From the NCBI RefSeq assembly GCF_000001735.4, contig NC_003071.7, positions 19,381,443 through 19,445,442 on the forward strand: a stretch of DNA of 64,000 bases. The letters run 5' to 3'. Shown one piece after another: positions 1-33,340 of the stretch. The notes beneath the pieces are model-generated. The model was not told where the DNA came from. It saw nothing but the letters and a program-made list of their open reading frames with translations, and ran no database searches. The DNA is from Arabidopsis thaliana (lineage: Eukaryota; Streptophyta; Magnoliopsida; Brassicales; Brassicaceae). Position numbers and translations under genes: made by a program. Position 1 is the first letter of the stretch. Each line of letters begins with the position of its first letter.

Positions 1-63
1 TTGTAGCCACTCTTAAGATTTACTAAATGGATTTTTTGAGTATATAGAGTTTTCTGTTTACAG

Positions 64-762
64 GTTAATTTAAAGCCAAAGGTTCCTACCAAAACTGTAT
101 GCGATGAGCATCTTGAGCTAAGAAAAGAAATATTAACACTACTGAATCTTCAGAAGCAGGTAAACCATACAATACAAGTCTTATCTCACATAGATTCACA
201 AATATACAGCTATTTGTTTATTTAACTTGTTGCCAAAACATGGTGGGGTCGTAACTTCAGCTGCAATATAAGGAATCAGAAGGTTCATCACATCGTGAAG
301 GGTCGTATGCCGCAATGCCAGACACTCCAAAGGTGAGCAACAAACTTTGTTTATTGGTTCTCGCTACAGTTTCATCTTCCTGTTGATCTCTTTAATTTCT
401 ATATATATTTGATCAGGATCGTGTTTTCGCACCGGACCCATTCAGTTTTGGAGGTACATTATTTCCTTATCTTGTTGGTTTCAGCATTGTATGCACTACT
501 TAACCATCTCTAAGTTCATTTTGTGTGTTTATTTCAGCTGAAAGACCAATCAAGAAGGAACAAAAACGCAAGGTGGTGCACATCAGAGTTTGCTCTTCTT
601 TATTTTTCGTACCAATTCCTCCGAAAATCCTTTGCATCTACATGTAAAACTTGAATCTTAATTAAAATATGTTTGGGAATCCTGCAGGGTCCTGGAAGAC
701 AAGCAGATACTCCTTCACCAGCTCATAAGCGTCCGAGAAAGTTGAAAGCCTCTGATCTCTAA
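64..762 (+). CDS. SWC4: SWC4 / DMAP1-like chromatin protein, 3' end only
   Basis: Five terminal exons are visible at 64-159, 261-332, 417-453, 538-572 and 688-762, giving 104 codons in one frame up to TAA; the start lies left of the window. The visible protein begins [10 protein letters not shown], has a leucine-rich helical stretch ([16 protein letters not shown]), then a Lys/Arg-rich tail ([20 protein letters not shown]). This matches my memory of the C terminus of Arabidopsis SWC4, the DMAP1-like SANT protein shared by the SWR1 (H2A.Z loading) and NuA4 (histone acetylation) complexes. The SANT domain itself is not in the window. Identification rests on locus order and tail sequence, so the gene is likely but not proven; the exon structure is firm. 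A 24-bp copy of the stop-codon region lies 108 bp downstream. Confidence 0.8.
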
Positions 763-882
763 AATCTCTCTACTCGGTGCATACTGACTCGCAATTTCAT
801 GTGTATGTATTTGCCTTTTTCCGGTGATTTCCGCAATGTTTTCAGTTCTTAAATTATTTCTGATCTCTAAAATCTCTCTACT
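751..882. repeat. 24-bp direct repeat including the SWC4 stop codon
   Basis: The 24 bases at 751-774, which contain the last codons and TAA of SWC4, recur exactly at 859-882. The copies start 108 bp apart. The second copy would lie in the 3' UTR. Confidence 0.85.
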
Positions 883-2399
883 TGTACTCAGACACCGCAC
901 TATCTTGTCAAGCCAATTAGAGAAATTGAGAAAATGTTGCACATTATATTTATGACTAGTAAGAATTATTACATCTAAAGACATTTTCGAAAATGTTAAA
1001 TTACAAATGGTTGATTGGTATGATAAAGAAAAGAATAAAAATTAATTAGATAGAAGAGAGAGTAAACTATCGAAATAAGAAACACAATATCAGGAGGTGG
1101 AAGGCGAGGAGACACATTCATAAGAATGTAGATAACAGGGAGCTTGAGGTGGGTAGAGACAGAGAAGAAGACAGTTGACAACAATTGTTGAGTCTTGAAG
1201 GAGTCTCGCTACATACATGTAAAGAAAAACAAGGATTACTACTTTATTTCTTCAAACTTATAGATTCTTCTATTGATAGGCAAAAATCTTAGCTTCAATG
1301 TGTTTATATGTATGCCAAAACTCCAACCAAAGAAAGAATGTCCATACTTTTTCTCTCAACTTAGCAATAAGTCCCATTATACAGTGGGATTTAAGATTAC
1401 TGAAATTTTCAACACTTAGAAATCTTGAGTTTTTAGTATACTACCAATTAGACCAAAAAATAACTAAATTTGTTCCACATGTGACAGAGGTATACTAGTT
1501 ATTATAATCAATATCATTATCAATATTAAGCACAACTACATTCGAATGACTAACAGAGATTCCTACGAAAAAACAATAATCTGAAGCAATAGAAGTAAGA
1601 GAAGCAACTATACATTTGGAATCGAATAGCCGATATGGGAATCCGCCACAGATTCTGGAGAAGAATTTGCAGTTTGTCGGAGAGAGCTTTTGATTGAAGA
1701 AATCAGACAAAAGTTTTGGAGGAGAGATCTCGAACCGGAACAAAAAGTTTACATTAGTATTGAAATTAGAACTAATTTGCGGTTCGGTTTACACTGGGCT
1801 AAAGAGGAAAAAAAAAAATTCACGCGATGGTGATTTTGAAGACAACTGCGTTGATAAAAAAAGGCATGATTTCAAAAGGTGAACCCCTACAGAATTGCTC
1901 TCACGCTCTCAACGCGCACTTTGTGCGAGTAGATCTGAAATACAGCCTTGTGATTGGCTAAAAAACTCTAAAAAAATAGAAATAGTAGACATGTTGCTAG
2001 CTTATGTTATTATTTAGCTTTTCTACAAAACGCCGTCGTTTTTTATTTCGATCGTTTCAGCTTTTGGCATTGATCCGAACCAATCGGTTCAACTGGCTAA
2101 GTCTATCCACAGGTTTGTATAAAAAATCTCATTTGGTCATGAAATTAAGCACTAAATTTATATTAATTAATCATTTAATGCTTATAGACAAATTCTATTT
2201 CATATTTCTAACGAATCAGACCTAATTGTACGAAATAAATTATTGGTTCTGAAAATATCAATTGGGAAATTAAAACCCGGTTCAATTTGAAACCGGAAAC
2301 AAGACTAGCTACGCCTGGAAACTCTCACACAGAGTCACAGGAGAAGCTCCCGCGTCTGCAAGGAACGGATAAAGTCTCTCTCTTTCTCACTCTCTCTCA
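763..2399. other. Intergenic region, SWC4 to chimeric locus
   Basis: About 1.6 kb of AT-rich DNA without a recognisable gene. Short open frames here have no family features. The left part should hold the SWC4 3' UTR. The part from about 2280 to 2399 is richer in GC and ends in a CT-rich leader (CTCTCTCTTTCTCACTCTCTC) directly before the ATG at 2400, as in many Arabidopsis 5' UTRs. A palindrome-like AAAACGCCGTCGTTTT lies at 2027-2042. Confidence 0.6.
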
Positions 2400-3454
2400 A
2401 TGAAGAAGAAGATGCTGACGAGTCCCAGTAACGCACTTCACAGTAGTACTCCACAGTTCTGGCCAGTTCGCCGGAGCAGACTTTGCCGTTCCCGGAATTT
2501 CCCTCGTTTTCACTCCGGCGAACGCAGCAGCGGCGGAGGAGGAAAATTGTGCTCGCTCTCTCTTCTCTCCGGAAGTGGCGCCAGTAAATTCAGTGTCAGA
2601 GCTCTAGTTAGGCCTGATGATACCGATGACGCTGACTCCGTCGGCGATGGGTCTCTGGCTTGTTCCTAACCACGTATCTGTCAAAATTCCATTCGGAAAT
2701 AGAGAGGTAATTTCTTCATAAAGCTGTACCCTTTTGATTTCATTGGTTGTTTCATCTGGTCAAATTTGAATTCGGAGATGATTGGTAGGATTTGAGACCT
2801 TTCGCTCTATAGTAGAGAAGCAAAGCTCGCTGCTTTAGATGTATGTGTTGAACTTGTTTTAGCTTCTTCTTAAGTTTTTCATCTTTTTCTTTCTTTTTGT
2901 CTACTGTGTAGATTTTAGTTGAGACTGGTCTCATGGGGAGACAAGCAAGTTCTGCAGTCACGGTGACAGATGGAGAAACTGTAAGTGTGCTGTTTCATTC
3001 AATTTCCAAAACTTTCAACTTTTTTTCTTAGTTCCTCGAGTTTGTATTCTTCAGTTTAGCTTCTGTTACATGCTTATCTCTTAATCGGCTTTGTTTCATT
3101 ATCTAATCTGTCTACTTGTCATTGTAGATTGTCTTCACATCCGTTTGTCTAGCTGATGTTCCGAGTGAGCCATCAGATTTTCTTCCCCTTTATGTTCACT
3201 ATCAGGAGCGATTCTCAGCTGTAGGTCGAACTAGGTAAGCGTTTTTCAATTTTGGAGTCTCTTGCTGTAAGAAGACCATGTCATTGCCTAAATGATGATC
3301 TAAATGGACCTTCTTGTGGTACAGTGGTGGATTTTTTAAGCGAGAAGGGAGAACCAAAGATCACGAGGTATGTACTAATGCTGTTTTTGGTTTCGTCTAT
3401 TTCGCCATCCTTCTTAACATGTTGATTTTTATGCAGGTTCTGATTTGTAGGTTA
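2400..3454 (+). pseudogene. Plastid PNPase 5' fragment (exons 1-5), forming the front of a chimeric gene
   Basis: Exons at 2400-2706, 2912-2980, 3128-3234, 3325-3367 and 3437 to about 3454 encode a plastid transit-like N terminus ([13 protein letters not shown], basic and Ser-rich) followed by the first RNase PH core of polynucleotide phosphorylase: [50 protein letters not shown]. These are hallmark PNPase blocks, and I recall nearly the same text from the Arabidopsis chloroplast enzyme RIF10 (At3g03710). Introns and phases are kept, so this was a DNA-level copy, not a retrocopy. Homology stops just after VLICRL, before the usual IDRPLRP. In exon 1 one extra base near 2661-2664 shifts the frame and brings a stop at 2667; the later exons are open. 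An internal ATG at 2934 could start translation but reaches a stop at 3503. Without a second core, KH and S1 domains it cannot be an active PNPase. Confidence 0.85.
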
Positions 3455-3624
3455 CTTTTCTTTGCCTTCCTGCAGCCTCCTACATCACCGGACAGGAAGA
3501 GCTAAAAGCATGCTTAAATGATTGGAAATCCAATGGTTTAGTGGTGTCTGGTTTGGTTAGAGATCAGAGGGAGAAGTTGATTCAGGAAGTGTCTTCCACG
3601 TTCAGTGGCAAGCTCAACATTCTT
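3455..3624 (+). pseudogene. Tropinone-reductase-like SDR fragment inside the chimeric locus
   Basis: A pyrimidine-rich intron end (TTGCCTTCCTGCAG) is followed at 3476-3624 by an exon reading, in its own frame, YITGQEELKACLNDWKSNG, then RDQREKLIQEVSS and FSGKLNILV, ending at GTAAGT. This is the region between the second beta-strand and the NNAG loop of plant tropinone-reductase-like short-chain dehydrogenases, where EL.ECL..W, RDQREKLM and GKLNILVNN are typical. A few residues usual after SGSVCDV are missing. The Rossmann glycine motif and catalytic Tyr-x3-Lys are absent, so it has no enzyme function. The preceding PNPase piece enters in another frame. The join lies at about 3455-3475. Confidence 0.75.
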
Positions 3625-3929
3625 GTAAGTTCCCTTCTCCTGCAAAATGCTTGTTAAAACTGACTCTAGTTTTTTCTCAGCATTGTGATCAGAATCGTCA
3701 TTGATCTTGAAATAGTTTATTGCATTAGCTCTGCATCCTTATAAGTTTATTCAGAGAGACGGGAGTCGCCATTAGCTCAAGGATCAGGGAATAATATGGG
3801 TGGTTCTGTGATGAATGGTAATACTCCTCCATCACTAGACTGTCTTTTATCTCCAAAATCCAAATGGATCCTCTTAATTAATGATGAGTTTCTACATCAT
3901 GAAAATTGATCATGTCATGGTGTTTCCAG

Positions 3930-5030
3930 CTAATGAATCTGTTTCACCTGTAACCTCTTCCCCGGTTATAACTTCAACACCGTTGGAACATACAGAGGCT
4001 GGAACTAAAGGAAAGACGGTCCCCAAGAAGACACTTCAGCCAATGGAAATGAATCAACTCGAGAGAAGGTATCACTTTAACATAATTGTCATTATTTTTA
4101 TTTAACTCTGAGATGGTTCTTCTTTGTGTTTAACACTAATATGCACAGATGCGTGAGAAGCATTATAGTGAAGATAACAGTCGTAAGAGGAAAAGAGGAG
4201 AACTGGAGCATAATTCGGACCTCAACGAGACTGGTATGTCTTAACTCTCATTCGACCTTCTGAAATTCATGATCAGCTTGCAATGTTACAAAGGCTGAGT
4301 TCCATTATACGAGTAATAAATATTACTATACTAAAGCAATTTCATTAATTATCTTGTTAATTTGTGCATGCGTTGATCTCCAGTGCTACCCTCTGATTGG
4401 ACTCCCGATCCTGTGAAGAATTTTGCTGCTGATGATGATGATGAGGAAACCAAAGCAAAGGATGCAACAATGGTTCTGCCTTTTGTGAAGAAGTCACCGG
4501 TTTGGAAGATATATGAATCAATGGAGGTCTTCAAAAGAGTACCACAAAGTCCTCATTTCAGCCCATTGTTTGAAGCAAAAGAAGATTTCCGTGAAGGTTT
4601 TGCTTTGGGTATGATGGTGACTTTTTCTGGGGTATTAGAAAAAGTAGAAGATCTGAAAACCGACGTTCCCATACGCCAACTAAATAGCCTTAAAGACTCA
4701 TTTACCGAGCTAGAGAAGCATGGATTCACGGTCACAGCGCCTTTATCTCGGATCGCCAAGCTGTTAGCTCTCAAAGATAGACAACTAAAAATATTGGAGG
4801 AACTAAAAGTTTTCGACAAAGAGATGAAAGATGAATCTAGCAAAAAGCATAAAGCTGAGCAAGAGTTTGGTGAGATGGAACGCAAGATTCTTGAAGTGAA
4901 AAACAAGGTTCTGGAGCTGCAGAAGCAAGAAGCGGCTCTGGAAAAACAGAAGGATGCAACCTATGAAAAGATATGTAAAATGGAGTCACGTGCAAGAGAT
5001 CTTGGTGTAGAGCTTGAAGATGTGGAGTGA
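3930..5030 (+). CDS. DUF5: DUF724 domain protein 5 (3' part of chimeric locus)
   Basis: Exons at 3930-4068, 4149-4233 and 4384-5030 are closely related to the 3' half of the next gene. The last exon holds the DUF724 domain: [39 protein letters not shown] and ELEKHGFTV, then a long coiled coil rich in Glu, Lys and Leu, ending ELEDVE-TGA. DUF724 proteins of plants are poorly understood; some interact with one another. The Agenet domains found at the N terminus of the paralogue are absent. Phases do not agree: the exon at 3930 enters the 4149 exon in the wrong frame in the simplest splice, while 4149-4233 joins 4384 correctly. A further decayed DUF6-like exon is visible near 3760-3830. The locus is At2g47220 by order. 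cDNA is needed to know where translation starts; the DUF724 exon itself is intact. Confidence 0.75.
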
Positions 5031-5268
5031 GTTGGAGACAATTCTGTCAGCTCCCTGGTAAGTTAAGAAAAAAAACAAAACTATAATGATCTATTCTGAC
5101 TCAAAAGATTTATCTGAGTTCGTTGTTCGTTATAGGTTATGATGTTTAGCTTTTAATCTTGAAGCCATTAGCTTAACTTCATTTTCCTTTTTGTGGATTT
5201 CAGGTGAAAAAACAAAACAAAGAAGGAACAAAAGCGTAAAGGGTTTATAGGATCAAGATCAGAGTCAA

Positions 5269-5335
5269 GGAGAGAAGCTGACGTGGCAAAGACTTGTGAG
5301 TGATTAAGTCAAAGAGAGAAGCTGACGTGGCAAAG
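5269..5335. repeat. 22-bp direct repeat with a GACGTGGC core
   Basis: The sequence GAGAGAAGCTGACGTGGCAA occurs twice, ending in AAG near 5291 and near 5335, 44 bp apart. Each copy carries TGACGTGGC, which resembles bZIP (ABRE/G-box-like) sites. The pair lies in the 653-bp interval between DUF5 and DUF6, about 350-400 bp before the DUF6 ATG. Confidence 0.8.
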
Positions 5336-5401
5336 AAAAATGAAGACTGAATAATTAATTAATTAATATCAGTGAGAGCAGATAAAAACAATTAATTAAG
5401 A

Positions 5402-5584
5402 TGGGCTCGTTAATTTAGGCCCAATAGATTTCTTTGTAACTTTCATCGCGCCAAAAAAATGAAGAATTATTCATTAATATAAAGTAATTAATTAAGGAGT
5501 ATGATATGACGACTTCTCAGATTCCTATGTAAAGCTAATCCATTTTCAGAAACAGAGTTTGGGTTTCTCTCCGCTTTAGGGTTT
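5402..5584 (+). promoter_or_regulatory. DUF6 proximal promoter: site II pair and telo-box
   Basis: TGGGCT at 5402-5407 and GGCCCA at 5418-5423 form a site II pair (TCP-protein targets in many Arabidopsis growth genes). TTTAGGGTTT at 5575-5584 is a telo-box, typically placed near the transcription start. A CT-rich and T-rich leader follows up to the ATG at 5684. Function is inferred from motif and position only. Confidence 0.5.
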
Positions 5585-5683
5585 TCTGTGGAAGAAGAAA
5601 AAGGCGGGGGTTTTCTCTCTCTTTGTTCTGAGGTTTTTTTTTTTTTAATGTAATCAGAGTAACGACATTGGTAGTATCTGGGG

Positions 5684-8569
5684 ATGGAGGAAACGATTAG
5701 GAAAGGTTCTGAAGTGGAAGTGTCTTCTACAGAAGAAGGTTTTGCAGATGCATGGTTCAGAGGTATCCTCCAAGAAAATCCTACCAAATCAGGTCGCAAA
5801 AAGCTCCGTGTTCGTTACTTGACTCTGTTAAACGACGACGCTTTGTCTCCTCTTATCGAGAACATTGAACCGAGGTTTATTCGACCGGTTCCGCCGGAGA
5901 ATGAATACAACGGTATCGTTTTGGAGGAAGGAACGGTGGTTGATGCTGACCACAAAGACGGATGGTGGACCGGTGTCATTATTAAGAAATTGGAGAATGG
6001 CAAGTTTTGGGTTTATTATGATTCTCCACCTGACATTATTGAGTTCGAGAGAAACCAATTGAGACCTCATTTGCGCTGGTCCGGTTGGAAATGGCTCCGA
6101 CCAGATATTCAGGTACGAGGTTGATGTAATCCAAGTTGGGTTTTTTTTTTCCTTAATTTTGTTGCTTTGTTACTAAAGATTGAAACTTTTATCTGTTGCA
6201 TGTTGTGATCCATTATTAAATCCGTTTTTTTTTCATGCTTGGAGCTGTCTCTGTTTTGTTGCATGCTATGTTTTGATTGAAATGGTTAAAGGCTTGATCT
6301 TTGACTTTGATTCTTAGTGTAGACTTTGATGTTTCTGATTGTTTTCCTTGAAGGAATTGGATAAGTCCATGTTTAGCTCCGGGACAATGGCGGAAGTGAG
6401 TACTATTGTAGATAAAGCTGAAGTTGCGTGGTTCCCTGCTATGATAATTAAAGAGATTGAAGTGGATGGTGAGAAGAAATTCATCGTGAAGGACTGTAAT
6501 AAACACTTGAGCTTTAGTGGTGATGAGGCGAGAACCAACAGTACCATTGATTCGTCCCGTGTTAGACCCACACCGCCTCCTTTTCCAGTTGAAAAGTACG
6601 AATTGATGGATCGTGTGGAGGTGTTTCGTGGTTCGGTATGGCGTCAAGGTTTGGTAAGAGGAGTTCTCGATCACAACTGTTACATGGTTTGTTTAGTGGT
6701 TACAAAGGAGGAACCAGTGGTTAAACACTCAGATCTTAGGCCTTGTAAAGTGTGGGAAGATGGGGTTTGGCAGGACGGACCAAAGGTATCATATTCAATA
6801 ATTTCAATCAATTTTCTTTCGGTTTTTGATTTGTTGGTATGATGAATTGAAGCTGTTGTGTGTTTTGTCCTTTTTTCAGCAAACCCCTGTGATAGAAACT
6901 CCTTCCAACGTCATGAAAACGAAGCCAATGCGCTCTTGTTCTGGTGCTAAGTCAATGACTCCTAAAAGGACCACAAAACATGCCAGAAGATCACTGAATC
7001 TTGAGAAAAGTGCAGAGACACTCACAAAAGCTGAAAGTAGAGCTGTGAGTTAGGCATTCACTAATTTCGTTTGCTTTTCTCATGTCTTTGAATTAACAAA
7101 TTTTGTTTCCTGCAAATAGGCCACTGGAGAATTGAGAAGTAAGAGGGCTAATGATGTTATTAATGATAATACTCCTCTGGTCATAACCCCACAAGTGAAA
7201 CCAATAGGTAATTGTGATCTTGTTCAGCTCTTTGAGTTTAGTTTCTGCATCATGAAACTGATCTTTAAAGTCAATGTTTTCAGCCTCTGTTGAACCTGTA
7301 ACCCCTTCCCGAGTCAGAACTGCAACACCGTTGAAACAAACAAAGGCTGATACTCAAGGAAAGTCTTCCCCCAAGAAGACACTTGAGCCAATGAGAGATG
7401 AAAATGGCTTAGAAAATTCAACTCGACAGAAGGTAAAGTTAGTTCTTCGTTTGAAAATCTCTCTTTCACTAGATGGTGGTGTTCATGATTGGTATTTATC
7501 AAAATGATGCTTTATTATCTGTATATAGGTACTTGAGGAGAAGAATAGCGAAAAGAAGGGTAGGAAAAGAAAAAGACAAGAAGAACACAACTCAGACCTT
7601 AAGGAGACTGGTATGTCTTAGCCAGCATCTATCTAGACTGATATCTTTGTTTGGTACCCAAATTTTAATCATATAATTGGTTATAATTTGTAGATGAGAG
7701 TTGCAATGGTCAAATGGCCGAGATCAATGATACAAGCAGTATCTGCAACGATGTTGATGATCAGCCTCTCGCTGCTTGGATAAATTTGCCTACTGGTTCG
7801 AAATCTTTTCAGTATACTTAAGCTAAGATTTATCTCTTTGAAACATTTCAGATAGTATATGCTAGACAATTTTTTTTTTTTTTTTTTTTTTATCGTGTTG
7901 ATCTATCCAGAGACATCCATTGATCATAGCCCGATTGTGGTGAATAATGCTGCTATTGCCACCGATGTTGAGGAAAGACAAGCAAATGATACACTAATGA
8001 TTTTACCTTTTGCAAAGAAGTCACCGTTTTGGAAGATGTATGAGACACAGGAGGTATGCAAAATAGCACCACAGAGTCCACATTTCAGCCCGCTGTTCGA
8101 GGCTAAAGAAGAACTCCGCGAATGGACAGCCGTTGGTATGATGGTGAGTTTCTATGGTTTATTAGAGGAAGTAAAAAACCTGCAACTCGATGTTTCCCCA
8201 AGCACTCTAGGTAGCCTCAGTTGTTCTTTTGCCGAGCTAGAGAAGCACGGTTTTGACGTTGCAGCCCCTCAGTCACGAATCAACAAAATGCTGTCTCTCC
8301 AAGATGAGCGAGCAAAGAAAGCAGAGGAAAGAAAAGGTCTTGAGAAGAAGATTGAAGCAGGAGAGATAGAAGGGCACACGTATGAAGAAGAAATGGCTGA
8401 GTTAGAACTCAAAATTCTGGAGCTGAAGAGACAACAAGTGGTTGCGAAAGAGATGAAGGAAGCTACAGACAAAGTGACAAGTGGAATGAAATCATATGCA
8501 GAAATGATTAATCAAGAGATAGAAGATTTGAGGCTTGAGTTTCAGTCAACTGCTTCTGCTCCATGGTAA
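5684..8569 (+). CDS. DUF6: DUF724 domain protein 6, Agenet plus DUF724
   Basis: Eight exons (5684-6112, 6354-6785, 6880-7044, 7120-7207, 7284-7432, 7529-7610, 7694-7795, 7911-8569) join in one frame of 702 codons, 701 aa. Exons 1 and 2 carry Tudor-like Agenet repeats (FADAWFRGIL, GWWTGVIIKK, ELMDRVEVFRGSVWRQGLVR), folds that in plants bind chromatin or RNA-associated partners. The middle is basic and low in complexity (SMTPKRTTKHARRS, GRKRKRQEEH), a likely nuclear signal. The last exon is the DUF724 domain ([39 protein letters not shown]) followed by a coiled coil to about residue 690. The last intron contains a run of about 28 T. It is the intact tandem paralogue of the preceding locus, At2g47230 by order. 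Molecular role not established; nuclear scaffold or transport roles have been suggested for the family. Confidence 0.92.
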
Positions 8570-11219
8570 TAAAAGTAAGAAGACAAAACTATGAATAACC
8601 TCTCTAAGCTCTAGATTCTGGTAAATGAAAACTTAGATGTAAGTAAAAAAGACTCATCTAAGATCTAATCCCCTTTTGCTTATTGTTGATGATGATGTTA
8701 AGTTTAACTAATCTTTTGTAGACCTTATTTATGATGAGAAGAATCTGTCTAATATTTTGTGACTTCCTTCTAAAGTATTGAAGACACGTCAAGATCGGTC
8801 CAAACTCAATTTAGTAATTTACGCACAGTACAATCATCACATGTAGTTGAAAACTAAGCTAAAGAATTGCTATTAAACTAAAGAAATTATTAAAATTGTA
8901 CACCTTGATTCGAAGATGAATAGATTGATGGAGTTTTGTGATAGCAGATAAGGACAAAAAGCCTAAAGACTCGGAATGCTTTAGAAGGTTCGCTCCTAGC
9001 TGGCTATTTTATTTTAGTTTTTTTTTGTAAAGAAAATTTTCCCACTTCTCTCTTATTGGTTACTTACTGCATGACGAGTTAAATTGTCCTTGAAAGTTAA
9101 AAATATTTATCTCCATAATATCTTTTTTTTTATAAAGAGATAATATCTTATGTTAATACAGATTTTTTGTAATTTTTCTCAAATATATATATTGCAAATT
9201 GTACAAGAGATACAATTTGTTGAAACTAGTTATTGTTTCAACCCTACAACTGTTTAAGTCTGTGACACATATTAATGCAAACGGTCTCGTTGTCCATCAG
9301 TCCCATGCATTACATTTTTTTTTTCTTTTTTCAAATATTCTGCGTAATTTAATTTCAACATTGTATAATCGACCCTTGTATGTCCGTATTGAAGGTTGGA
9401 AAAATTTAATGATACATTGTACGTTTTCTAGGTTTTGTTCTAAATGCTCATAAACCTACTTGGATTTGGAAATAAATGAGAGCTTACATATATAGAACAA
9501 TACTCTATTTCCACAAAAATTATTTGCTACTCATATACAAATGTAGGTTTAGAAAAAATCCACTTTAGCAAAAAGAGATGGGAAATTAATGAAAATTCAC
9601 TTGACTTTCTTTGTTTTGTGAGCAATTTTCGATTTCAAAGTAATGGTCGGACTTAGACTTTTTCCTGTTCTTTTTTGCTGACTTAATAATAAGCTGAAAC
9701 TTAACAGTTAGAAGTTGGAACAAGATATAAATAAAAAAGCTAAGTTGTCAAACATAAAGTTGAAAATGATTTGGTGATGTCAATTAAATAAAAAGTTGAA
9801 AACTAATCATTTGTATTTGACCGGCGGTTACTTGGAATAAGACTAAGAATTATTGTACTTTCTATTTAATGGGTTTGCTAAGTTTTTTATCAGATCATTT
9901 TAAGCAAAATATCGATAACTTTTCGAAGAGATTAGTTGAAAATACTAAGCATTATATATATTTAAATATGATGGATCAGTATATATAGTTTTGAAAATCA
10001 CACTGCAGGATCCGTTGGAATTGGTGGCTGAGAACTTTTATGATCTTCTTAAAATTTTAATCCGTAAATAAATTATACGAGTTGGATTGGTTCGCGTCTT
10101 CTAATGCGTATTGACATCTATAATAAAAGCTATCAGAAAAGTTGCTGATCTTTTTCTGTATCTTATTAAATATGTAGACCCGAGCAGAGAAATGTGGATC
10201 AATTAATAAATATCATGTACGGATGAACAAGAGAGAAGAAAAAAGTATAATAATACTATAGAGCGAAAAGTATTGCATGATGGAGAAACTCTCAACAATT
10301 TCAAACATGAACGACTTCTTACAAAACAATGTATCTTTAGTTGTCACAATCTTTGAAATTCTACAAATAGAGAAGACGGAAAAAGATGAAAATGAAATTA
10401 GTGTTTTTCTTTGGCAAGGTCCTTGGATCTCTTAAAAGTGATTAGATCAACGGTAATGTTTTAGATATCCTACATGTGCATTGATTCGATAAAAGCATTT
10501 AAATAGTGAATATTACAAACAAAAATAGATACTTACATCATGAAATAGAAACAAAATCAAACTGGGTTGCTACTTACCAGTAATCACGTGACGGTAACTG
10601 GCTAACTGCAATAGTATATCCAAAACAACTTTAAGAAATGGATACGAAATGTTTTAGTTTTGGGAAAATGTCAAATAAAGATTTCGTCACAAATCCATCA
10701 ATCCAGTATAGAACACTTTTATCAAAATGATTTTGCAAATTGATTCTTAGAGTACGATACAAGTTGCAAACTGGAAAAATAATTTTGCAGTTGCAACAAA
10801 TAATAATAAATGATTGTGCAAATTGATTCTCAAATTAAGTAGGAAACAAGTTGTAGTAGATATAGACTGTTTTTACATGATGTTAATTCCAAAAGGATTC
10901 ATTGCCATACAAATGGTTTTCTCATAGAGGACGTAATATCAATTAATGGAAAATAGTAGTTGAAGATTTATAGAAGAAAAAAAAAACTTTCCGCAAACAA
11001 CACTATATATATATATATTGGATCAAAAATAAAAAGAGTTAAATGAAAGAAATACACAGACCTGGCCTGTATCAACCAACTCATATATTATTATATAAAC
11101 CAACATCCATTTCTCAGCTCCTCATCAAATTATCTTCTTTCTCTTTCTCTCTGATCATTTCCAAATTATTTCTAAGCTAAGAAAATCTTTAAAAATAACA
11201 AAGCTTCTAAAATAATAAT
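8570..11219. other. Gene-free AT-rich region after DUF6
   Basis: The first 150-200 bp should be the DUF6 3' UTR (poly(A)-like AATAAA variants near 8700-8760). Beyond that, to 11.2 kb, I see no conserved coding region, only short frames in AT-rich DNA with simple TA runs (for example 11005-11020). TATATTATTATATAAAC near 11085-11101 with a CT-rich stretch after it (11110-11155) looks like a plus-strand core promoter, possibly the distal start of the LACS1 transcript. Confidence 0.5.
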
Positions 11220-30750: not shown

Positions 30751-32474
30751 AAATGGAGATTACAGCTTCTGAGAAGGTTCTCCTTTTATCTCTCAAAAGA
30801 ATTGGATGAGAATTTGACAAGTGTCCACAAGGGTGTTTTAAATGTTGTTTTTGATGGATAATTAGGGTTTAGCTTAAATCAGAGGACATGTCATCAAAAT
30901 ACAACTCGATGCACATGCACTCACATGATTATCATCACTACCCAACTCTCTTACATGCTTAATAACACCAACTTTCTTCCCATTCACATCACCTTAAACA
31001 CCCTGTCTTATTCCTCCTTTGTTGCGCTTTATCCATTTTTTCATTTTATTTTATTTTACTTTCGCAGCCAATTTGTTCTGAGATTAACAAAGTCGGGCGG
31101 ATTGAAGCAAACCAAAAAAAAAAAGTCAGGCATTAACGAAGAATATAATTATCTTTATGCCATTATCTTTCTAGATTAATTCTTAATCTAATTTATAAGC
31201 ATGCAATCAGTGTATTAAGACGCTAGCGATTGAAATAGACAGATATATAGGTTGATAAGATGAAAAAGAAAATATTCATATTATGCCGCGCGCGTTAGCA
31301 AAAGTCAAAACAACTATCGAAAAATTATCTTATTTTATATTTCTCCCAAAATTTTGGTCTGATTCGTAAACTAATTTAGAAACATACAATATATTAGTGT
31401 TTGAGTTTCGCTACAATGTATATAGTTTGAATTGATCACCACTGTCGACGGAGATGATAGATAAAATATGACTATTTGGTTGTCATAATGCTTTTGCTTT
31501 TATCAAGTCGTTATATATCTCATTATTTCCAGCTGATATAACCCGGCGCAACTAATTAAGAAATATGAATAACCTAATGATATAACAAAAGCATTTCTAG
31601 GTGTTTTATTTTTTTGGACAAAGTAGATAACGATGTTGGATAATGGGATAAGGTCTTAATATAAAAAGACACAAGAACATGCAGTGATCTTCTGTGTTCC
31701 TTTGAATTTATGGACTTTCGTATTTAGGATTTTTATTTTAGTGAGTGGATTTGATTGAAGCACCTTAAAAGATTATGTTCTTTCTCGTCATGTGTTTATT
31801 TTTAAGAAAAGAAAAAGAAAAGCAGATTCGTGGAGCGATGTTGATCAAACATCCTCGGAGACTATAGATTCAATGTATATCTCCCATCGCCGTCAACACG
31901 AAACATTGTACTTACAAATTCTCTTAGACATATATGTACGTCTCTGATAATTGAGATATATAAATTGATCATTAAATGAGAATTAGCTTAACATTCGCAT
32001 ATGATTGATCAGTGTATGTCTATATTTTATAGGTTTCAAGGTAACGTGAAAAGTACCTAACTAATTAAGGTAGGTTTATACATATAATAAGTAGCCATAA
32101 TGGAGTGTTTAGTGGTCGAAATTGATCGCTTGTTAGCAGCACGTTGTATGTATATTAGCTTAACGTGCATGCACATGTTCTTATATCCTCCCTATTCGTC
32201 TAGGCCACCCAACACATCTATATCCCAATTCACAATTTTTTATATATATTTTTTATTACCAGAAAATTATTAATGTTTCGGAAATTATGATCGAGTAATT
32301 ATCTTATGTATAATTTTTACGAAATTTCCTTTGTTAATATCATAATAGTTGTTTTAACCAGAAAATGGTATATATATCAGAAAGAAGTAAAACAATAAGA
32401 AGACCATATCAGCAGAATCTATTATATGTTGAATGTTCTGTCTTCCAATAAATGATACAAAAATAAATCTTAAA

Positions 32475-33340
32475 CTAGGATTTAATCCGTGGTACACCAC
32501 GGGACAAATATTTTTTATATATATATATATAATAATATGAATTTTACGGTTTTAGTTTAGTATTAAAGTTATATAATTTTATATTAATATTGTAACTAAA
32601 AAAATTGGTGATGATAAAATAATAAAATAAATATTTAACATGTGTTATATCAATCCAAACCCGTCCTGCTATTCATATCAATCTAAATCCGTCCCGCTAT
32701 ATTTTTTGTCTCATGATTTTTTAATTTTTTATAAGTTTAAATATTAGTTGTTGAATTAGTTATGATTGTGATTTTATACCGAAAAAGTTATGGACTTTTA
32801 ATTTCATGGAATATTCAAACCAAGATAAGGAATGTTTTTAGGTGCACATATAATTGGGTTTGCTCATTTTACGGGATTGTAAATGTATTTTGGTTTGTTT
32901 CACAATGTTTGTTTTAATTGATTGCCGATATTTAATAGAAATAATTTAAATAGTTCAAATTTTGGTTGTTTTAAGATTTAGTGAATATTGTAGGTGAGAT
33001 AAGGAGAAGATAATTTATCGTGTTTTGCGTGACATATGGGATTACCATATATTTCGAATATTTTTGGTTTGTTACACAATTAATTGCCTTAAAAAAATAC
33101 AAACTATTAATTAAAAAAAATTAAATAATTAAAATCCAGTGACAACCATTGTAAATAAATCCCAACTCCATGATTTATTTCACAAAATGGATGCAAAAAT
33201 GTATATATAGATTTAGAAATAAAAAAATGGATCAAATAAAAAACTCAAAATTTTATGATAAAAAAAACTAAAAGATCAACCAATATTAAGAAAATATATT
33301 TAGTAATAATACTATACTATAATATATAGCTATGATAGTT
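32475..33340 (-). mobile_element. Non-autonomous Helitron-like element, 3' end clear, 5' end not located
   Basis: Read on the minus strand the sequence ends CCCGTGGTGTACCACGG, then TTAAATC, then CTAG, followed by host T. The hairpin stem is CCGTGG/CCACGG (32487-32502, loop of 4), about 8 bases before terminal CTAG at 32478-32475: the CTRR-with-upstream-hairpin signature of Helitrons, inserted before T. I recall ATREP family ends of nearly this form. CCCGTCC-like motifs at about 32660 and 32690 are also seen in such elements. The right boundary (the element's TC end) is uncertain; 33340 is only where the extreme AT-rich sequence ends. No RepHel coding sequence. Confidence 0.6.

Follow-up and report, generated by a model that had tools for sequence, protein, structure and literature searches.

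Double-strand breaks in plants can be repaired with filler or patch DNA, through gap patching or templated insertions, and Helitrons are recognized by a 5' TC start, a 3' CTRR end, and insertion between A and T. For transposed Arabidopsis genes, Woodhouse, Pedersen and Freeling (2010; PMC2869330) proposed a circle/recombination route. Here we describe a chimeric locus on chromosome 2 of Arabidopsis thaliana that joins pieces of a polyribonucleotide nucleotidyltransferase (PNPase) gene and a tropinone-reductase-like SDR gene to the 3' part of a DUF724 gene. The locus lies in a stretch of 64,000 nucleotides (C2:19381443-19445442), which we call the window; coordinates without a prefix are positions in the window, and C1 to C5 denote the chromosomes. 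The comparison genome comprised 119.66 Mb in seven contigs, and the best donors are those found by DNA comparison within this one A. thaliana genome.

The locus resembles the filler and patch DNA of repaired plant breaks in having ectopic genomic pieces, microhomology, possibly short fillers, and no transposon ends, and it differs in that four related partial copies of one locus are present, in a few chromosome ends. The transposed genes of PMC2869330 share with our material the copying of intron-bearing gene DNA and, at a sister copy at C3:1.18 Mb, a genic repeat of more than 15 bases, whereas the window copy is partial, chimeric, and without a flanking repeat of 15 bases or more. The gene-number stems that we searched for were not found in the main text of that article. 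Pack-MULE and Helitron capture likewise produces intron-bearing gene pieces with several genes joined, but none of the end marks tested for is present here. Compared with the DUF724/Agenet family, the locus has the 3' DUF724 domain but lacks the Agenet front and has foreign pieces in its place.

The chimera is real, and PNPase, SDR, and DUF724 pieces were all identified, in agreement with the three sources given by the initial annotation of this DNA, although the anatomy is unlike that first reading. The features are as follows.

1130 to 3453, plus strand: 2.3 kb of genomic DNA copied from the 5' end of the PNPase locus (promoter, exons 1 to 4, start of exon 5, and introns), by DNA match to C3:918267-920558
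1130 to 2399, plus strand: PNPase promoter/5' region within the insert, a contiguous match upstream of the C3 PNPase start codon
1747 to 2023, plus strand: copy of a dispersed noncoding repeat of ~260 bp, in the PNPase promoter
2400 to 2706, plus strand: PNPase exon 1 copy with a one-base insertion; the first-ATG frame has 89 residues
2912 to 2980, plus strand: PNPase exon 2 copy, splice sites and frame preserved
3128 to 3234, plus strand: PNPase exon 3 copy
3325 to 3367, plus strand: PNPase exon 4 copy
3437 to 3453, plus strand: first 17 bases of PNPase exon 5 (VLICRL), up to the join
3450 to 3453, plus strand: GGTT microhomology at the PNPase/SDR join, bases present in both donors
3450 to 3496, plus strand: SDR last-exon fragment (VTFLCLPAASYITGQ), ~47 bases
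3493 to 3624, plus strand: SDR exon 2 fragment, fused through CAGG (3493-3496) behind the last-exon fragment
3625 to 3747, plus strand: SDR intron 2 fragment; the match to positions 4964-5243 of the C3:0.793-Mb locus (L012) stops at 3747
3744 to 3754, plus strand: SDR/DUF724 join; the last seven bases (3748-3754) match neither donor
3755 to 5030, plus strand: 3' part of a DUF724 gene, beginning mid-gene and without the Agenet front; paralogue homology starts at 3755
5600 to 8570, plus strand: neighboring DUF724 gene with Agenet domains, for comparison (Pfam Agenet E 4.4e-39, three stretches)

The PNPase part matched C3:918267-920558 without interruption (89.5% over 2370 aligned columns), with 125 substitutions in 2232 ungapped sites (5.6%). 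The initial annotation had proposed a genomic, intron-bearing copy and not a retrocopy, with the PNPase exons ending after VLICRL, and one unbroken DNA-level match that takes in the introns upheld this: exons 1 to 4, 17 bases of exon 5, and the introns follow in order. The presence of PNPase introns 1 to 4 ruled out a retrocopy. The start of the piece had been placed at about 2300 to 2400, which missed the promoter half; the insert begins at 1130 and includes about 1.27 kb 5' of the PNPase start codon. The C3 locus (C3:0.918 Mb, L009; labeled At3g03710 in the initial annotation) has further frames past the copied part, whose pieces match solved polyribonucleotide nucleotidyltransferases (best E 7e-35), and its first 199 residues match Pfam RNase_PH (E 1e-17). 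We therefore treat it as the intact donor gene, and we take its product to be the plastid enzyme.

The SDR piece (3450-3747) is scrambled, running from a last-exon fragment to exon 2 (EELKACLNDWK...) and then intron 2, as opposed to the normal exon order of a complete gene at C5:1.824-1.826 Mb. The closest solved structure to the SDR protein is the tropinone-reductase homologue At1g07440. An SDR exon had been correctly placed behind PNPase by the initial annotation, but the gap of ~20 bp with an intron end that it saw there is a 4-base overlap and the last-exon fragment of ~47 bases. The identical scrambled join occurs at C3:792963-793242 (89% over 300 columns). That copy has a 20-base exon deletion which the window lacks, so the present-day C3:0.793 sequence as such was ruled out as the template, and the window derives from an earlier state of C3:0.793 or from a lost sister. 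The At2g29 SDR cluster (C2:12.5-12.6 Mb), which had been singled out for alignment with this piece, was excluded as the SDR donor by an exon-2 protein identity of 42 to 58% against 83% for the window piece; the last exons of that cluster are up to 75% identical, and the complete relative is the gene at C5:1.824 Mb. An origin of the pieces on two other chromosomes, as had been supposed, is not supported either, since the PNPase and SDR pieces both have their best DNA matches on C3, at 0.918 and 0.793 Mb, with about 125 kb between them.

The C3:0.7925-0.7947-Mb region (L012 4487-6750) is itself mixed: tropinone-reductase-like SDR exon 2 and intron 2 are followed by the last exon and then by a second exon 2. 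These pieces run into exons of a different SDR gene, similar to one at C3:0.784 Mb.

The DUF724 domain was found in 4386-5027 (Pfam E 9.4e-67), and no Agenet match better than E 7 was obtained in window 1-5600, which, with DUF724 homology starting at 3755, confirmed the earlier view that the Agenet front of this copy is gone. The tail is cut by an early stop. From about 4044 onward the closest relative is at C1:3.845 Mb, and for 3887-4053 it is at C5:8.0 Mb and in the neighboring gene, DUF6; the pairing with DUF6 that had been proposed thus applies only near 3887-4053. Against the nearest paralogue, that at C1:3.845 Mb, synonymous divergence (Ks) is 0.44 and the nonsynonymous-to-synonymous ratio (Ka/Ks) is 0.34. 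Since a Ks of 0.44 compares with 5.6% divergence of the insert, the DUF724 copy is far older than the insertion. A literature search on At2g47220 found nothing, and a search of one DUF724 paper gave no match to DUF5.

The joins and edges can be read directly. The left edge is abrupt: CATTCATAAGAATGT is followed by AGATAACAGGG, while the donor has AAGTGCTCACCG ahead of the same AGATAACAGGG. The PNPase/SDR join is out of frame and overlaps by GGTT, and a second 4-base overlap, CAGG, lies between the SDR last-exon fragment and exon 2. At the right join, AGTTTATT at 3744 repeats AGTTTATT at 3714, thirty bases upstream, as an 8-base repeat, and the join creates an AG acceptor (TTTATTCAG). A check for terminal inverted repeats, target-site duplications, or Helitron ends at the insert edges found none of them. 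The insert starts with AGATAAC (AG, not TC), ends with ATAAGTT (not CTRR), and is flanked by T and T. The longest inverted match between the two edge stretches is 7 bases, giving no Pack-MULE terminal inverted repeats, and no direct repeat of at least 6 bases was found at the two edges, where a Pack-MULE target-site duplication would have 8 to 11 bases. The left flank (800-1129) had no second copy among the matches listed, and DUF724 starts 7 bases after the insert; hence no element is seen outside the joins.

Partial sister copies of the PNPase locus are present at C3:1.18, C3:1.40, and C4:17.65 Mb. The copy at C3:1.178-1.183 Mb holds 4.3 kb of the donor region (94.6%) and extends 2 kb further upstream than the window copy; it joins PNPase to SDR intron 2 at a point different from the window join. 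It shares an internal deletion with the C3:1.400-Mb copy that the window lacks. The differing joins and the absence of this deletion from the window therefore excluded a single PNPase-SDR fusion as the shared source of the window and C3:1.18 copies. At C4:17.6486-17.6496 Mb, only a promoter part is present. The left ends of the copies fall at different donor positions (L009 1784, 3768, 3924, and 5391), unlike a mobile element with fixed ends. Three of the copies have short fillers or repeats at their edges: the C3:1.18 copy has a perfect SDR last-exon piece of 20 to 21 bases on each side, the left edge of the C4:17.65 copy has 26 bases taken from the donor about 50 bases downstream, and the window has the 8 bases, at its right join only.

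The C3:1.18 copy (L010 1513-5733) is a mosaic relative to the donor. It is 98% alike upstream and has no difference in the first 199 window-shared sites; the divergence is then about 1 to 6% across the remaining promoter and exon 1, and about 7 to 17% in the intron-rich part. It looks as if part of the copy had been converted by the donor. The sequence to its left (L010 1315-1490) weakly matches C1:888-1905, at the extreme end of that chromosome, with 77% identity in one match and 85% over 62 bases in another.

We consider a repair patchwork made by template switching to be the best explanation of the chimera and probably the correct one. It fits the different ends of the copies, the short overlaps, the fillers, the lack of target-site duplications, terminal inverted repeats, and Helitron ends, and the lack of any element outside the joins. 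A patchwork of this kind was one of the options that the initial annotation had offered, and the overlaps, fillers, differing ends, and missing transposon marks support it. The unbroken match to a single intact locus, promoter and introns included, and the greater age of the DUF724 copy relative to the insertion also speak for it. In our reconstruction, a chromosome break or collapsed fork would have occurred at an old DUF724 gene on chromosome 2. Repair would then have copied 2.3 kb of the PNPase locus, from the promoter to exon 5. A template switch at four shared bases may have led from there into a tropinone-reductase-like SDR fragment that was already scrambled, of which 0.3 kb would have been copied. 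Closure by microhomology end joining into mid-DUF724, with loss of the Agenet half, would have left a patchwork carrying the PNPase promoter. With a substitution rate of about 7e-9 per site and year, we infer an age of about 4 million years for the insertion, later than the A. lyrata split, which is older than that.

Several points weigh against template-switching repair. Microhomology, expected of patch products, is present at the joins (GGTT and CAGG) and absent from the left edge, where there is no filler either; a filler search there gave scattered matches of 10 to 11 bases, which we took as chance. The 8-base repeat of the right join is short enough for chance. Replacement at a break and insertion into an already truncated gene cannot be told apart in this single genome. 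Finally, window-unique substitutions are rarer in the PNPase exons (5/496) than outside them (71/1676; Fisher P 0.0002), with the exon boundaries of this count off by one to three bases; we also made a per-exon recount. Over window 2400-3453, PNPase exon sites carry such changes at about a quarter of the rate found outside the exons, in exon 1 on both sides of the extra base. A plain dead copy does not predict this slowness. It could reflect selection that acted on the donor until the copies separated, conversion by the donor, a lower mutation rate in exons, or a functional period.

The last of these bears on the suggestion that the chimera is a working gene in which the PNPase promoter drives a fusion of an RNase_PH fragment with DUF724, exon 4 being spliced to DUF724 exon D3. 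This reading concerns the product and is compatible with an origin by patching. The full exon chain over 2400-5030, with the conserved splice sites and the new acceptor TTTATTCAG, has no through frame in any of three frames. The first-ATG frame ends after 89 residues because of the extra base in exon 1, the PNPase frame meets a stop within the SDR part, and a separate shift lies in DUF724 exon D2. The frame that reaches the DUF724 stop opens in D2, with 243 residues from its first ATG, and thirteen exon-skipping variants that all retain D2 still had no through frame. Beside the conserved splice sites, the analysis covered two inner donors in exon 1. We then read all 248 exon subsets that contain at least one PNPase or SDR exon and end in D4; in eight of them, an ATG in a PNPase or SDR exon is in frame with the DUF724 stop. 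All eight lack the SDR exon, D1, and D2. When all exons with conserved splice sites are used, there is no PNPase-DUF724 fusion, and only chains that skip these three exons give one.

The longest open chain (E1-E2-E3-E4-D3-D4) has 346 codons. It starts at an inner exon 1 ATG before the extra base, in a non-PNPase frame, and reads PNPase residues after that base, with Pfam matches to RNase_PH (E 3e-9) and DUF724 (E 2e-66). The exon parts in the fusion frame have 2/252 window-unique changes (P 0.006 against the non-exon, nonrepeat rate of 50/1404), and the DUF724 frame is open, with the low Ka/Ks to its paralogue given above. Skipping of the SDR exon, whose acceptor is kept, would thus allow a fusion protein. 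We nevertheless consider a working fusion gene unlikely. All eight chains must skip the SDR exon despite that acceptor, plus D1 and D2; the full chain is broken in three places, the DUF724 tail is lost to its early stop, Ka/Ks mostly reflects the time before insertion, and with 248 chains tried some open frames are expected by chance. Few changes are also seen in exon 1 ahead of the extra base (3/239, P 0.03), a stretch from which the fusion frame reads no PNPase sequence; slow change therefore extends beyond the fusion.

In the circle/recombination route, a circle with PNPase and SDR pieces would be excised between repeats and reinserted at sites sharing sequence. If such circles were opened at varying points, this would account both for the permuted order within the SDR piece and for the direct repeat that flanks C3:1.18, and the route has several observations on its side. 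The C3:1.18 copy lies between perfect direct repeats of genic (SDR) origin, as reported for transposed Arabidopsis genes in PMC2869330; the order from last exon to exon 2 is scrambled both in the window and at C3:0.793; and PNPase is joined to SDR at two places, with unlike joins. Those two joins, however, are not circular permutations of one join, the window insert has no flanking direct repeat, and the left repeat at C3:1.18 is only 20 to 21 bases, with no SDR match found to its left. The route is a possible one for C3:1.18, and as the origin of the window chimera we regard it as improbable.

Capture by a Helitron, Pack-MULE, or other DNA element, which several intron-bearing partial gene copies at dispersed sites and a dispersed ~260-bp repeat in most of the loci would suggest, is highly improbable and, for Helitrons and Pack-MULEs, was rejected on the missing end marks (no target-site duplication, no inverted repeat longer than 7, no Helitron ends, no element sequence seen outside the joins) and on copies that end at different points, with the repeat lying within the native PNPase promoter, away from the edges of the insert.

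The repeat itself showed an unexpected distribution. It occurs in the PNPase promoter and next to both the C3:0.793 SDR pieces and the pieces at C3:1.40. Two pattern scans returned 24 and 25 places, of which 23 and 24, respectively, fell in four chromosome-arm ends (C2, last 3.5 Mb; C3, first 1.5 Mb; C4, last 2.6 Mb; C5, first 2.3 Mb), with C2:3.674 Mb as the one exception. The combined 26 places, merged at 100 kb, gave 19 loci, 18 of them within four ends of 3.5 Mb each. In 20,000 random placements the count never rose above 12 loci, even though each could pick the best four of ten ends; the zone and its 3.5-Mb size were chosen post hoc, and the loci are not fully independent. As a control, an unrelated dispersed element of ~740 bp (window about 32460-33221), present on all five chromosomes, had 3 of 40 matches in the four ends (the best 40 of 437 candidates). 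The PNPase and SDR copies were also found in these ends. Four repeat loci gave no Rfam match at the gathering score, and a search for coding sense in five repeat loci gave a longest listed frame of 137 amino acids.

Sharing extends beyond the repeat. Of the 27 loci fetched, 23 have 120 bp or more in common with another locus beyond the repeat itself, in a sample that is not independent because the loci were fetched for carrying the repeat or gene pieces. Nonrepeat queries from two of these loci led back to the four ends, the one exception being C3:3.83 Mb (for one query, among the best 40 of 46 candidates). The match between sequence next to the C3:1.18 copy and the very end of C1 runs counter to the four-end pattern. 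The DUF724 and SDR gene families lie outside the four ends too, as expected of old families.

Around the repeat we also observed a sequence family with roughly 0.5 to 2.3 kb in common, up to 97% alike, in the same ends. Its loci (L058, L059, L050, L051, L055, L047, L053, and L056) lie at C4:16.06 and 16.32, C2:18.5-18.7, and C5:1.6-1.9 Mb.

We tentatively suggest, as an idea that may well be wrong, that a network of ectopic copying, operating almost only among four chromosome-arm ends (those at the far end of C2 and C4 and at the start of C3 and C5), gave rise to the chimera as one of its products. The cargo of such a network would be unrelated sequences, including PNPase pieces, SDR pieces, the ~260-bp repeat, and several kilobases of noncoding neighbors. 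No title on the four-end pattern was among the listed matches of literature searches on subtelomeres and Hi-C, which is weak evidence.

The locus is an unusually readable example of unrelated genes fused without a visible transposon. The donors, scrambled intermediates, sister copies, and joins are all preserved within one genome, and the anatomy of the chimera corrects the tempting Helitron or Pack-MULE reading. If the copying network is real, it would suggest that physical contact of the four chromosome ends in repair or meiosis decides which genes fuse. If the restriction to four ends holds in other accessions and in relatives, it would provide a testable link from nuclear contacts to the sites of gene-fragment copying.

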